In this document: positions 57,430-60,895 of the stretch, one piece after another | How positions within the stretch are numbered: the first letter of the stretch is position 1 | How the letters are laid out: each line of letters opens with the position of its first letter | Source: Gammaproteobacteria bacterium | GTDB taxonomy: Bacteria > Pseudomonadota > Gammaproteobacteria > GCA-001735895 | DNA length: 64,000 nucleotides | Reading direction: 5' to 3' | NCBI GenBank assembly: GCA_022340305.1 | Contig: JAJDOF010000082.1 | Span: 1-64,000, forward strand | Translations under genes and position numbers: made by a program | Notes under the pieces: generated by a model | Told to the model about the DNA's origin: nothing | Seen by the model: the letters and a program-made list of their open reading frames with translations, nothing else | The model's database searches: none

Positions 57430-57469
57430 CGTCATTCTGCTCAAGGTCCCCGCTTCCGCGGGGATGACG
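57430..57469. repeat. REP-like element between convergent genes
   Basis: CGTCAT at 57430-57435 and ATGACG at 57464-57469 flank an inner hairpin TCCCCGC, TTCC, GCGGGGA (57447-57464). It resembles the units at 30.5 and 33.5 kb but with a diverged left half. It lies between the 3' ends of the NTF2-like pseudogene and the kinase gene. Confidence 0.5.
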
Positions 57470-57562
57470 TTAAGATTGCGGACGGAGTTAGCGAGCGCAG
57501 GACAACGCAGCGATCCAGCGTCCCGGGCAGTTGCCGGGCATGAATTCGGTGAGATATACGGG

Positions 57563-58960
57563 CTAGCCTTGCAGCCAGTAGTTTCTAAATTTTTCGCTGT
57601 CCCTGGCGTTCGGAATTTCGCGTGCCAGCAACTCGACAAGTTGCTCCAGGCTAGTGGTGGTGGCGGCATGGTGCTGCACCAGTCGCGCGGCCAGCGGACC
57701 GATATAACCCACATAGTTCTCGCCCATTTTTTTGAGCATGTCGTCGTCGAAAGAACGCACTTCGGCCGTGCCGGCGGTTGGCGCGGGATTGCCGATAGCG
57801 GTGGCGTCAATGCGGGTACCGCTAATCGCTTCCCAGCGTTTGAGGAACTCTTCACGTTCCCCGGGTTCAGGGATTTCCTTCGATATCGAGGAGACCAGTT
57901 TGTTCGCCGGTGTATTCGCGGAATCATAGGCAACCATGATATTCCGGGCGATGGGCCCCACGTAGTCGACCAGCAAGTTGGTCAACGAATCCAGTTCACC
58001 GGGATTGGTCGCGAGGGAACCGGATTCCCGGGGCGACTGCGCTAGCGGAGACGGCTGTCCTGCCCGGGTTGCGTTCCGCACCACTACGGTGGGATCGTCC
58101 GCGACTTTGGTGGTCGCGGCGGCCGCTTTCAGTTTTGGCAGCACCTCTTTTATACCCTGCACATACTCCCTGGCGCTTTGGTAACGATCCGCCTGGGTAA
58201 CCGACAGCCCCTTAAGTAGAACGGGAATCAGGGCGGTTGGATAGAGGATGGCGTAGTTGATGCGGTTATTCGGCGGTAAATTGCCAATTTCAGGCAGACT
58301 GGAACGCGGTATGGCCGGGCTTTTCGGCAGTAAGGCGAGTAAGTCGAGAAACACCATCGCTACCGAGAACAGGTCCGCGCGGGCATCCACTTTCAATCCA
58401 AACATCTGTTCGGGCGCCATGTATTTTGGAGTGCCGACGACGGCGCCAGTCATCGTCAGATCCGGGCTTTCAGCAATCCGCGCGATCCCAAAATCCGCCA
58501 GTTTCACATTGCCACCTTCTTTCAGAATCATCACGTTGGCAGTCTTGATATCACGGTGGACAATGTCCAGTTGATGCGCCGCATGCAGCGCCTTGAGCAA
58601 TTGCGAAATGATGGACAGCGTCTTTTGCAGGCTAACGCCTCTGCCTGACTTGATAATATCCTGCAACGACGCCCCTTCGACAAACTCCATGACGATATAG
58701 GGCATGTCGCGGTCCTGTCCGTACTCCAGCACCGTGACGATATTCGGGTGGATGCAGCGCGCCGCAGATCTGGCCTCGCGCTTGAAGCGCTCCAGGAACT
58801 CGTCGCCATTTCGTTGCGTAACCAGGTGTGGGTGCAGGATTTTTATCGCGACCCGGCGCTCTATGTCGGGGTCGAAACCTTCATATACGACGCCCATCGC
58901 ACCCTCACCCAGCGCTGCCTGGATTCGATACTTCCCGATATTTTGCGGCAGCTTGTTCAT
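57563..58960 (-). CDS. Hanks-type Ser/Thr protein kinase with duplicated C-terminal domain
   Basis: A 465-residue kinase with all catalytic parts: glycine loop LGEGAMGVVYEG, K40 in VAIKIL, D137 in HRDIKTANV, D156 in ADFGIA, and GTPKYMAPEQ. After the kinase domain (to about 280) comes an Ala/Pro-rich linker containing DDPTVVVR, a possible phosphothreonine site, then two similar 55-residue repeats (YVGPIARNIM to EEFLKRW, and YVGYIGPLAARLV to EKFRNYW). No membrane segment, so it is cytoplasmic. It starts 4 bases after the heme-sensor gene and is cotranscribed with it. Confidence 0.92.
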   Translation of the reverse strand: MNKLPQNIGKYRIQAALGEGAMGVVYEGFDPDIERRVAIKILHPHLVTQRNGDEFLERFKREARSAARCIHPNIVTVLEYGQDRDMPYIVMEFVEGASLQDIIKSGRGVSLQKTLSIISQLLKALHAAHQLDIVHRDIKTANVMILKEGGNVKLADFGIARIAESPDLTMTGAVVGTPKYMAPEQMFGLKVDARADLFSVAMVFLDLLALLPKSPAIPRSSLPEIGNLPPNNRINYAILYPTALIPVLLKGLSVTQADRYQSAREYVQGIKEVLPKLKAAAATTKVADDPTVVVRNATRAGQPSPLAQSPRESGSLATNPGELDSLTNLLVDYVGPIARNIMVAYDSANTPANKLVSSISKEIPEPGEREEFLKRWEAISGTRIDATAIGNPAPTAGTAEVRSFDDDMLKKMGENYVGYIGPLAARLVQHHAATTTSLEQLVELLAREIPNARDSEKFRNYWLQG

Positions 58961-58964
58961 GGCG

Positions 58965-59846
58965 TCAGACCTGCGATCTATCCAGTAGCTTCACCGCGCT
59001 CGACAGGCTGCGGTACATCAGGTTAAACGAATGCCCGAGCGAAGAAAGTTCGTCTTTCCCCGACTGCTCAAACTCGGTAACACTCATGTCACCCTTGCTG
59101 ATCTCCTCGGCCTTGGCGGCAATTTTATTCACCCGCTTGAGGATGATCAGGTGCAGAAATACGTTGAGCACCAGCCAGATCGCGGCAAATACGCCACCGA
59201 GAATGATCATGAATGCGACGAAGGTGGCATTCGCACGCGCTATCGGAATCGCCATCGGCACATTGACGATCTGCGCGCCGATGATCTCGTTGTGTTGCCA
59301 GCCAAATCCGTTGTGCACACCGTATTTTTTTACCATCGCCGCCGGCGCGGCCTCCGGAGTGCTGTGGCAGATGAGACAGCCTTCATTGGTAATCTTAAAC
59401 GGCGTACTTAAAAACAGGTATTGACCGGTCGGCGTCGAGCGCACTCCCGAGTACTCCTTTACATTCTCGTAGTTACGAAAATACTGAATAATGTCTTCTT
59501 CCCAGGAAGCCGCCTTATGTTCCGGGTTGGTCGGGTTCAGCGCCGCCTCCTTGTATGAATAATCGGGGTAGACCTTGCGCAGGCGTTTCATGTTTTCGGT
59601 TGCCGCGTAGGACGGCACGGTCTGCGACAAAAACTCGCTGGTTTTAACTCGTTGCAGCAGGGGTCGAATTTCATCTACCGTGTAAGAACGTACGCTTTTG
59701 GCGGCTTCCATCATGATTCTGGCCTTTAGCGCGACTTCATCCTTGGCATTTTCGAGCAGGATTCTCTCGATCAGGAAAGACGCCCCGGCAAAGCCGAGGG
59801 CAAACACCAGGAACATGGCCAGGTTGAATTTAAGCCGTATACTCAC
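58965..59846 (-). CDS. Membrane heme-c sensor (Tll0287-like domain) with HAMP
   Basis: A 293-residue protein: TM1 at about 8-28, a periplasmic domain of the Tll0287 (DUF3365) type with a c-type heme motif CLICH (C157, C160, H161), TM2 at about 207-236, and a C-terminal HAMP domain (LKRVNKIAAKAEEISKGDMSV, DELSSLGHSFNLMYRSL). It ends there, with no kinase, cyclase or methyl-accepting output, so it must act on another protein. The GTG start at 59846 has GGGGGAG seven bases upstream. It leads the operon with the Ser/Thr kinase. Confidence 0.9.
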   Translation of the reverse strand: MSIRLKFNLAMFLVFALGFAGASFLIERILLENAKDEVALKARIMMEAAKSVRSYTVDEIRPLLQRVKTSEFLSQTVPSYAATENMKRLRKVYPDYSYKEAALNPTNPEHKAASWEEDIIQYFRNYENVKEYSGVRSTPTGQYLFLSTPFKITNEGCLICHSTPEAAPAAMVKKYGVHNGFGWQHNEIIGAQIVNVPMAIPIARANATFVAFMIILGGVFAAIWLVLNVFLHLIILKRVNKIAAKAEEISKGDMSVTEFEQSGKDELSSLGHSFNLMYRSLSSAVKLLDRSQV

Positions 59847-59974
59847 GCTACTACTCCCCCACGCTATTCAGGCGCTTAAGATTTATTGTTATTCCACGCT
59901 ACGAATGCTCCGATGTTACCTTAAATCAATAGACCTTTGTTATACTCGGGCCAAATTTTAGCTGGTAGCAAAAA

Positions 59975-60895
59975 GTGGCACCCACCGACAACGAAGTGAC
60001 CATTATGTTTGCAGACATAGTTGGTAGCACCCGGTTGTATGAAATCCTGGGTGACGAGGTTGCCGAGAAATTGGTCACAACGACTCTGAAACAGCTATCG
60101 GACATCGTCAACAAGAATCACGGCCTGGTCATAAAAACCAGCGGTGACGACGTCATGTGCAGTTTTTCGAATGTCGACCAGGCCATGGAGGCCGCCAGGG
60201 ACATGCATAAGTTCGTCGCCGAGAAGACCGCCCCTTCACGGGATTACAGGATCGCGCTTCGCATTGGTGCACACAAGGGTCCGGTGATCGAGAGCGAAGG
60301 CGATATCTACGGAGACGCGGTGAACGTCGCCGCGCGCGTGGCGGCGCTGGCTCGCGGCGGCAAGACCCTGATTAGCGGATATACCTTCGAACAACTCTCC
60401 AGGGCTCCCCGTAAACGCTGCCGGCGTTTAACGACCACGATGGTAAAGGGCAAGGAACAGCCGATCGAGGTCTATGACGTGGTATGGGAGCAGACCGATG
60501 AACTGACGCGCATCGTCGGCAACGACGTCGCTAATGCCATACAGAGCATTCTGACCATTCGCTACGAAGATAATGTCATCAGAATGTCGGCCAACACCGT
60601 CACCCGCACAACGGTTGGGCGCGGCCAGGATTGTGATTTAATCGTCCCGTCGCAACAGGCGTCGCGCGAGCATTGTAAAATCGAATGCAATCGCGGCAAG
60701 TTCATACTCGTCGATAACAGCGCCAACGGCAGTTACGTAAATCACGACGAGACTGAATTATTCTTTCACCAGGAGCGGGTACCCCTGCTCGGTGAAGGTT
60801 ACATCAGCCTCGGCGAACCCTCGATCAACAACGAGGAATTTCTGCTCCATTATTCGATTGAAATGATCGGTGCCAGCCAGGCAAAACCCGACTAA
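59975..60895 (+). CDS. Class III adenylate cyclase fused to an FHA domain
   Basis: A 306-residue cytoplasmic protein. The cyclase domain (1-165) has metal Asps D14 in FADIVGST and D58 in KTSGDDVMCSF, Lys54 suited to ATP, and YGDAVNVAARVAALA with the transition-state Asn. The C-terminal FHA domain (about 205-290) has GRGQDCDLIVPSQQASREHCKI and NSANGSYVN, the phosphothreonine-binding residues. The start is a GTG at 59975 (an ATG at 60005 would cut the first strand). It diverges from the heme-sensor/kinase operon across 128 bases, suggesting that kinase phosphorylation controls cyclic AMP output. Confidence 0.92.
   Translation: MAPTDNEVTIMFADIVGSTRLYEILGDEVAEKLVTTTLKQLSDIVNKNHGLVIKTSGDDVMCSFSNVDQAMEAARDMHKFVAEKTAPSRDYRIALRIGAHKGPVIESEGDIYGDAVNVAARVAALARGGKTLISGYTFEQLSRAPRKRCRRLTTTMVKGKEQPIEVYDVVWEQTDELTRIVGNDVANAIQSILTIRYEDNVIRMSANTVTRTTVGRGQDCDLIVPSQQASREHCKIECNRGKFILVDNSANGSYVNHDETELFFHQERVPLLGEGYISLGEPSINNEEFLLHYSIEMIGASQAKPD

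Follow-up and report, generated by a model that had tools for sequence, protein, structure and literature searches.

The described heme sensor most comparable to the one analysed here is the sCache_heme (DUF3365/Tll0287) HAMP protein of Pseudomonas azotoformans (WP_033902098), which was reported in a 2026 preprint to have a TM-sCache_heme-TM-HAMP architecture without an axial Cys, to bind NO tightly with a koff for NO of about 6e-4 per s, and to form no stable oxygen complex (PMC12889525). In the same work, the stand-alone Tll0287-type domain looked redox-like and the tested proteins autoxidised. The text searched names no output or partner for the sensor, discusses no neighbouring genes, and does not contain the terms operon, serine or FHA (PMC12889525).

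Signalling from a kinase to an FHA protein is established in type VI secretion systems (T6SS; PMC12607579, PMC3953482), where the threonine phosphorylation pathway (PpkA-PppA-Fha, or TssW-PpkA-Fha in A. citrulli) acts from a Ser/Thr kinase via an FHA protein, together with a PP2C (PMC12607579). In this pathway, PpkA is a single polypeptide made up of a kinase, a TM and a periplasmic domain (PMC12607579). Class III cyclases are represented by mycobacterial enzymes such as Ma1120, and the TOMM kinase/cyclase fusion (TIGR03903) joins a Ser/Thr kinase and a class III cyclase in a single chain without a heme sensor.

Here, a 64,000-nt stretch of a gammaproteobacterial genome (contig JAJDOF010000082.1, hereafter the window) was analysed, in which genes for a heme-c sensor, a Ser/Thr kinase and a cyclase-FHA protein lie side by side. 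The window sensor resembles the P. azotoformans protein in its TM-sCache_heme-TM-HAMP order, its CXXCH motif, and its lack of an axial Cys and of an output; however, while no partner was named for the latter, a kinase partner, a tail module and a cyclase-FHA protein are proposed for the former. Unlike PpkA, the window kinase is separate from its membrane heme sensor and carries a GPxA tail; and in contrast to the T6SS pathway, the FHA protein of the window is a cyclase, in a genome where no T6SS was detected. The window cyclase has its catalytic core in common with Ma1120 but differs from it by the FHA domain and the phospho-signalling context. As in the TOMM fusion, a Ser/Thr kinase is joined with a class III cyclase at this locus, but the window proteins scored 116.8 and 23.8 bits against a TIGR03903 cut-off of 705.75 bits. 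Neither the trio nor the GPxA tail was found described in the open-access papers searched, which covered HAMP, T6SS, kinase and heme as well as FHA, cyclase and kinase.

Organization of the sensor, kinase and cyclase genes

The heme-c sensor gene (58965..59846, minus strand) starts with GTG and encodes a 293 aa protein of sCache_heme/Tll0287-like plus HAMP composition, and the Ser/Thr protein kinase gene (57563..58960, minus strand; 465 aa) begins 4 nt past it on the same strand. The class III nucleotidyl cyclase plus FHA gene (59975..60895, plus strand; 306 aa) is divergent from the sensor gene, so that the sensor-kinase and cyclase genes have a 128-nt intergenic region in common (59847..59974). 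All three ORFs are intact, with their Pfam matches and the catalytic, heme and FHA motifs present. The original prediction, which described a membrane heme protein with HAMP and no output domain, a kinase gene close behind it, and a divergent class III cyclase joined to an FHA domain, was accordingly borne out at the gene level; it had overlooked a two-copy module of about 58 aa at the kinase C terminus, here called the GPxA tail. A short inverted repeat (GTCATTC..CCCCGC..GCGGGG..GATGAC) was also seen 3′ of the kinase gene, at 57430-57475 of the window.

The heme sensor and its putative input

The sensor matched the Pfam families Tll0287-like (E=1.8e-38) and HAMP (E=4.1e-10), and an output domain was absent. 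In detail, the periplasmic sCache_heme domain spans residues 32-197 (59256..59753, minus strand), the heme-c attachment motif CLICH residues 157-161 (59364..59378, minus strand), and the HAMP domain residues 231-282 of 293 (59001..59156, minus strand). Both cysteines of the protein lie in C157-L-I-C-H161 and none elsewhere, hence it has no axial Cys, and with a CXXCH-bearing Tll0287-like domain and an output-less HAMP it belongs to the sCache_heme HAMP type. Covalent attachment of heme c is predicted from the CXXCH, and for c-heme maturation CcmF is present in the window genome. The CXXCH is kept in nearly all sensor relatives and missing in one (L173); no sensor was found in 119 genomes of the family containing G452.

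The input had been predicted as redox or gas. Because the window sensor has the P. azotoformans-type architecture and no extra Cys, NO is our best guess for it by architectural analogy (PMC12889525), with redox as the main rival. In the latter case, the sensor would read redox potential or electron flow, and the heme oxidation state would set the HAMP conformation, as might be expected from stand-alone Tll0287-type domains, which act as redox proteins, and from the autoxidation of the proteins tested (PMC12889525). However, the HAMP-linked member that was studied shows NO-sensor kinetics and lacks an axial Cys like the window protein (PMC12889525), so redox sensing is considered possible but doubtful, and NO is kept as the most likely input.

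The kinase and its GPxA tail

The kinase (Pfam Pkinase, E=1.8e-43) is of the Hanks type, with the G-loop (GEGAMG), VAIK (K40), HRD135-137, DFG156 and APE182 motifs all present. Its C-terminal tail consists of GPxA repeat 1 (57827..57997, minus strand; profile A2, E=2.5e-16) and repeat 2 (57572..57739, minus strand; profile A1, E=4.5e-19), and the module has an invariant G-P-x-A core in alignment A1. In an AlphaFold2 model (7 sequences, mean pLDDT 69) the tail was helical, repeat 2 being modelled as four short helices with a block pLDDT of about 75-88. No convincing relative of the tail was found in Pfam or PDB, the single match being a weak one to NGO1945_C (E=0.011). Judged from sequence and gene neighbourhood, the GPxA tail appears to be an undescribed domain by which the partners of output-less sensors can be recognised.

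Between kinase domain and tail, Thr291 in the linker motif DDPTVVV (58088..58090, minus strand) is a candidate FHA-docking phosphothreonine. The motif D-x-[PA]-T-x-V is kept, inside an otherwise variable linker, in all three kinases of the conserved trios described below. The looser D-x(0,2)-T-x-[VIL], a pattern chosen post hoc, was found in the linkers of 14 of 37 listed tail kinases vs. 4.5 expected by shuffling, in a list that counts the window kinase twice (as WINDOW and L009).

Pairing of the sensor with tail partners across genomes

The pairing of the sensor with a tail partner is the strongest result of this analysis and is genomic in kind. In a survey of 369 Gammaproteobacteria genomes (sensor threshold E<=1e-30), the sensor was detected in 27 and the tail in 32, with both in 26; that is, the tail occurred in 26 of the 27 sensor-positive vs. 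6 of the 342 other genomes (Fisher p=4e-33), as detected by a profile built from sensor-adjacent proteins only. The sensor-kinase pair also recurs in many families of gamma-, beta- and alphaproteobacteria, and in a phylum draw three tail genes (L170, L171, L172) each adjoined a sensor. A chance neighbourhood of sensor and kinase is ruled out by this recurrence across relatives and the genome-wide co-occurrence. In nearly all listed loci the two genes share a strand, in either order, and are usually spaced by about -8 to +66 nt. Larger distances were seen in a few loci, as were apparent overlaps that result from an ORF start placed too far upstream. As an exception, the tail kinase of genome G323 (L099) is about 260 kb from the sensor, and no tail gene was found near the sensor in L050 and the cyanobacterial L117.

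The tail partner is mostly a kinase. In L088, L089, L097, L103 and L112, the gene after the sensor encodes a class III cyclase, those of L103 and L088 being assigned from a Pfam match just under the curated cut-off and by similarity only, respectively; in L088 and L089, tail-kinase, sensor and tail-cyclase lie in one stretch. Small partners in L047, L048, L049 and L052 were judged ACT-like on inspection, helped by a single weak Pfam match (L156). In two further loci (L044:8926-9657; L045:3089-3820), the sensor is followed by a 243-aa tail protein, perhaps a degenerate cyclase, the L044 model being of too low confidence (pLDDT 58.7) to support this. L048 and L052 also have a histone-deacetylase-like gene beside a sensor of ~40% identity, plus a GNAT-like acetyltransferase (Pfam on L048 only).

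Among the six tail genomes without the sensor, four have an adjacent dCache-HAMP-only protein without an output domain (L152-L155) and two have the tail at contig edges (L149, L151); inspection, together with weak Pfam matches, classed the L152-L155 tail proteins as DUF4388-like or roadblock-like. The window genome itself holds a second pair on contig C113 (L174:4944-6925), in which a HAMP-only membrane protein lies beside a DUF4388-like GPxA-tail protein, an arrangement seen again in L228, L247 and L250. In L173 (6647-7516), the sensor relative without CXXCH adjoins a tail kinase near an FHA protein, PP2C-like and TssF-like sequences (TssF-like by inspection); heme is therefore not indispensable for pairing, which suggests that sensor-tail pairing can persist without it.

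A strictly sensor-linked tail was ruled out by orphan tail kinases in the window's family. Twelve such kinases, without a nearby HAMP protein or sensor, are in the tail-kinase tree (L150 left out). They are the closest tail kinases to that of the window and group next to the trio kinases and partly between them, which implies one or two changes of state; all tree kinases from outside this family are sensor-adjacent. These orphans, and the distant tail kinase of G323, would suit a tail that serves for dimerisation or other protein-protein contacts rather than HAMP docking, so that its link to HAMP-only sensors is indirect. However, effectors unrelated to one another carry this tail next to HAMP-only sensors of two classes, and sensor and tail co-occur in all but one sensor-positive genome, and we therefore regard a non-docking tail as unlikely. 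The case for signalling from the sensor to the tail kinase, which is predicted from these genomic patterns, is strong.

The cyclase-FHA protein and conservation of the trio

The cyclase-FHA protein matched Guanylate_cyc (E=1.2e-19) and FHA (E=3.6e-13) in Pfam. Its motifs FADIVGST, KTSGDD and YGDAVNVAARV provide the two metal Asp, the adenine-specifying Lys/Asp and the Asn-Arg, which predict a class III cyclase of the adenylyl type, and its homologue in PDB is the adenylyl cyclase Ma1120 (E=7e-21). In the FHA domain, the phosphothreonine-binding residues GR, S-x-x-H and N-G are present in VGRG, SREH and DNSANGS. For cNMP binding, 22 matches were found in the window genome.

When the co-occurrence survey proposed in the original prediction was carried out, the trio was found elsewhere in the same divergent layout, with identities to the window of 75% (kinase), 90% (sensor) and 77% (cyclase) in L039, and 64%, 79% and 63% in L040. 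In L051, sensor (71%) and cyclase (48%) were found, the locus being truncated there by the end of the contig. The full trio is thus present in three related species, namely that of the window, L039 and L040, with a fourth, incomplete case in L051. DNA alignment of the window, L039 and L040 showed that the intergenic DNA is also conserved, with blocks such as ACCTTTG-TATACT. In L042 (Burkholderiales), a cyclase-FHA gene lies about 5 kb from the sensor-kinase pair. Across the class, cyclase-FHA genes occurred in 80 of the 369 genomes, mostly without the sensor: they were present in 10 of 27 sensor-positive vs. 70 of 342 other genomes (OR 2.3, p=0.053), which rules out cyclase-FHA as a specific sensor marker and indicates that the cyclase neighbour is lineage-specific. 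The window genome has a second cyclase-FHA gene (L054, G000:C109:20535-21425), which is flanked by a glutamyl-tRNA synthetase-type gene and an aconitase gene; no kinase was seen in its vicinity.

These distributions raise the alternative that sensor and kinase form one unit with other substrates, while the cyclase-FHA encoded divergently next to them acts independently, under other kinases. Cyclase-FHA genes are frequent in genomes that lack the sensor and are often found alongside other PP2C/STK genes, and the sensor-kinase pair is usually without a cyclase-FHA neighbour. Nevertheless, three related species have retained the linkage and the intergenic DNA, even where cyclase identity has dropped to 63%, a partial fourth locus persists at 48%, and the D-x-[PA]-T-x-V linker motif is in all three trio kinases; an independent cyclase is thus held to be improbable, and signalling from the kinase to the cyclase remains the preferred explanation.

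Sensor-kinase pairs were also found in T6SS clusters of plasmid and genome records, in parallel with the known signalling from kinase to FHA protein in such systems. In Skermanella rosea (L057), the pair lies between tagF and tssH in a cluster with tagH-FHA; further pairs are in T6SS clusters of Caballeronia (L115, and L118 with PP2C) and Paraburkholderia aromaticivorans (L116), with TagF and TssM in L171, and 2.7 kb upstream of a TagH-like FHA gene in L170. Apart from these clusters, PP2C often adjoins cyclase-FHA in other Gammaproteobacteria, directly so in L187, L192, L193, L196, L197 and L203, where L196 also has a more distant kinase gene, and a kinase is adjacent to or near cyclase-FHA in L189, L196 and L202; this is a phospho-signalling gene set that recurs independently of the heme sensor. 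By the T6SS-cluster pairs and the cyclase-FHA genes with PP2C or kinase, the putative signalling from kinase to cyclase-FHA is indirectly supported. No VipB/T6SS match was found in the window genome (86% complete), and a T6SS FHA protein is therefore not the expected kinase target there. Signalling from the kinase to the FHA cyclase at the window locus is, from sequence, plausible.

Discussion

The original prediction proposed a relay from heme to kinase to cyclase. Its first half, from sensor to kinase, is well supported by genomics, while the step from kinase to FHA cyclase is plausible, and we judge the whole circuit, from heme sensor through tail kinase and FHA cyclase to cAMP, to be evenly balanced between right and wrong. 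In this circuit, the membrane-anchored heme-c sensor would perceive most likely NO, possibly the redox state, and the HAMP-only sensor would signal to the separate Ser/Thr kinase, probably via its C-terminal GPxA tail domains. The activated kinase would then autophosphorylate, probably on linker threonine(s), and the FHA domain of the cyclase may bind the kinase phosphothreonine and so draw the cyclase into the sensor complex, by which cAMP output would be changed. The sign of this regulation cannot be read from sequence, which leaves room for FHA binding that inhibits or merely sequesters the cyclase, so that the signal lowers cAMP. Nothing specific speaks against this reading; it is regarded as rather improbable.

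More generally, it is tentatively proposed, with slightly less assurance than for the circuit itself, that these proteins represent a modular split receptor, in which HAMP-only sensors (heme-c Cache or dCache) signal to separate effectors having the ~58-aa GPxA domain in common. One sensor type could thereby be plugged into Ser/Thr kinases, cyclases, or DUF4388-like, roadblock-like and ACT-like proteins, with cAMP or T6SS outputs. If this is true, the missing output would be supplied for periplasmic heme sensors that bind NO, a class described only recently, and NO or redox sensing would be tied to Ser/Thr phosphorylation and cAMP, and in relatives to type VI secretion, while an unnamed domain would let output-less sensors reach many kinds of effectors.
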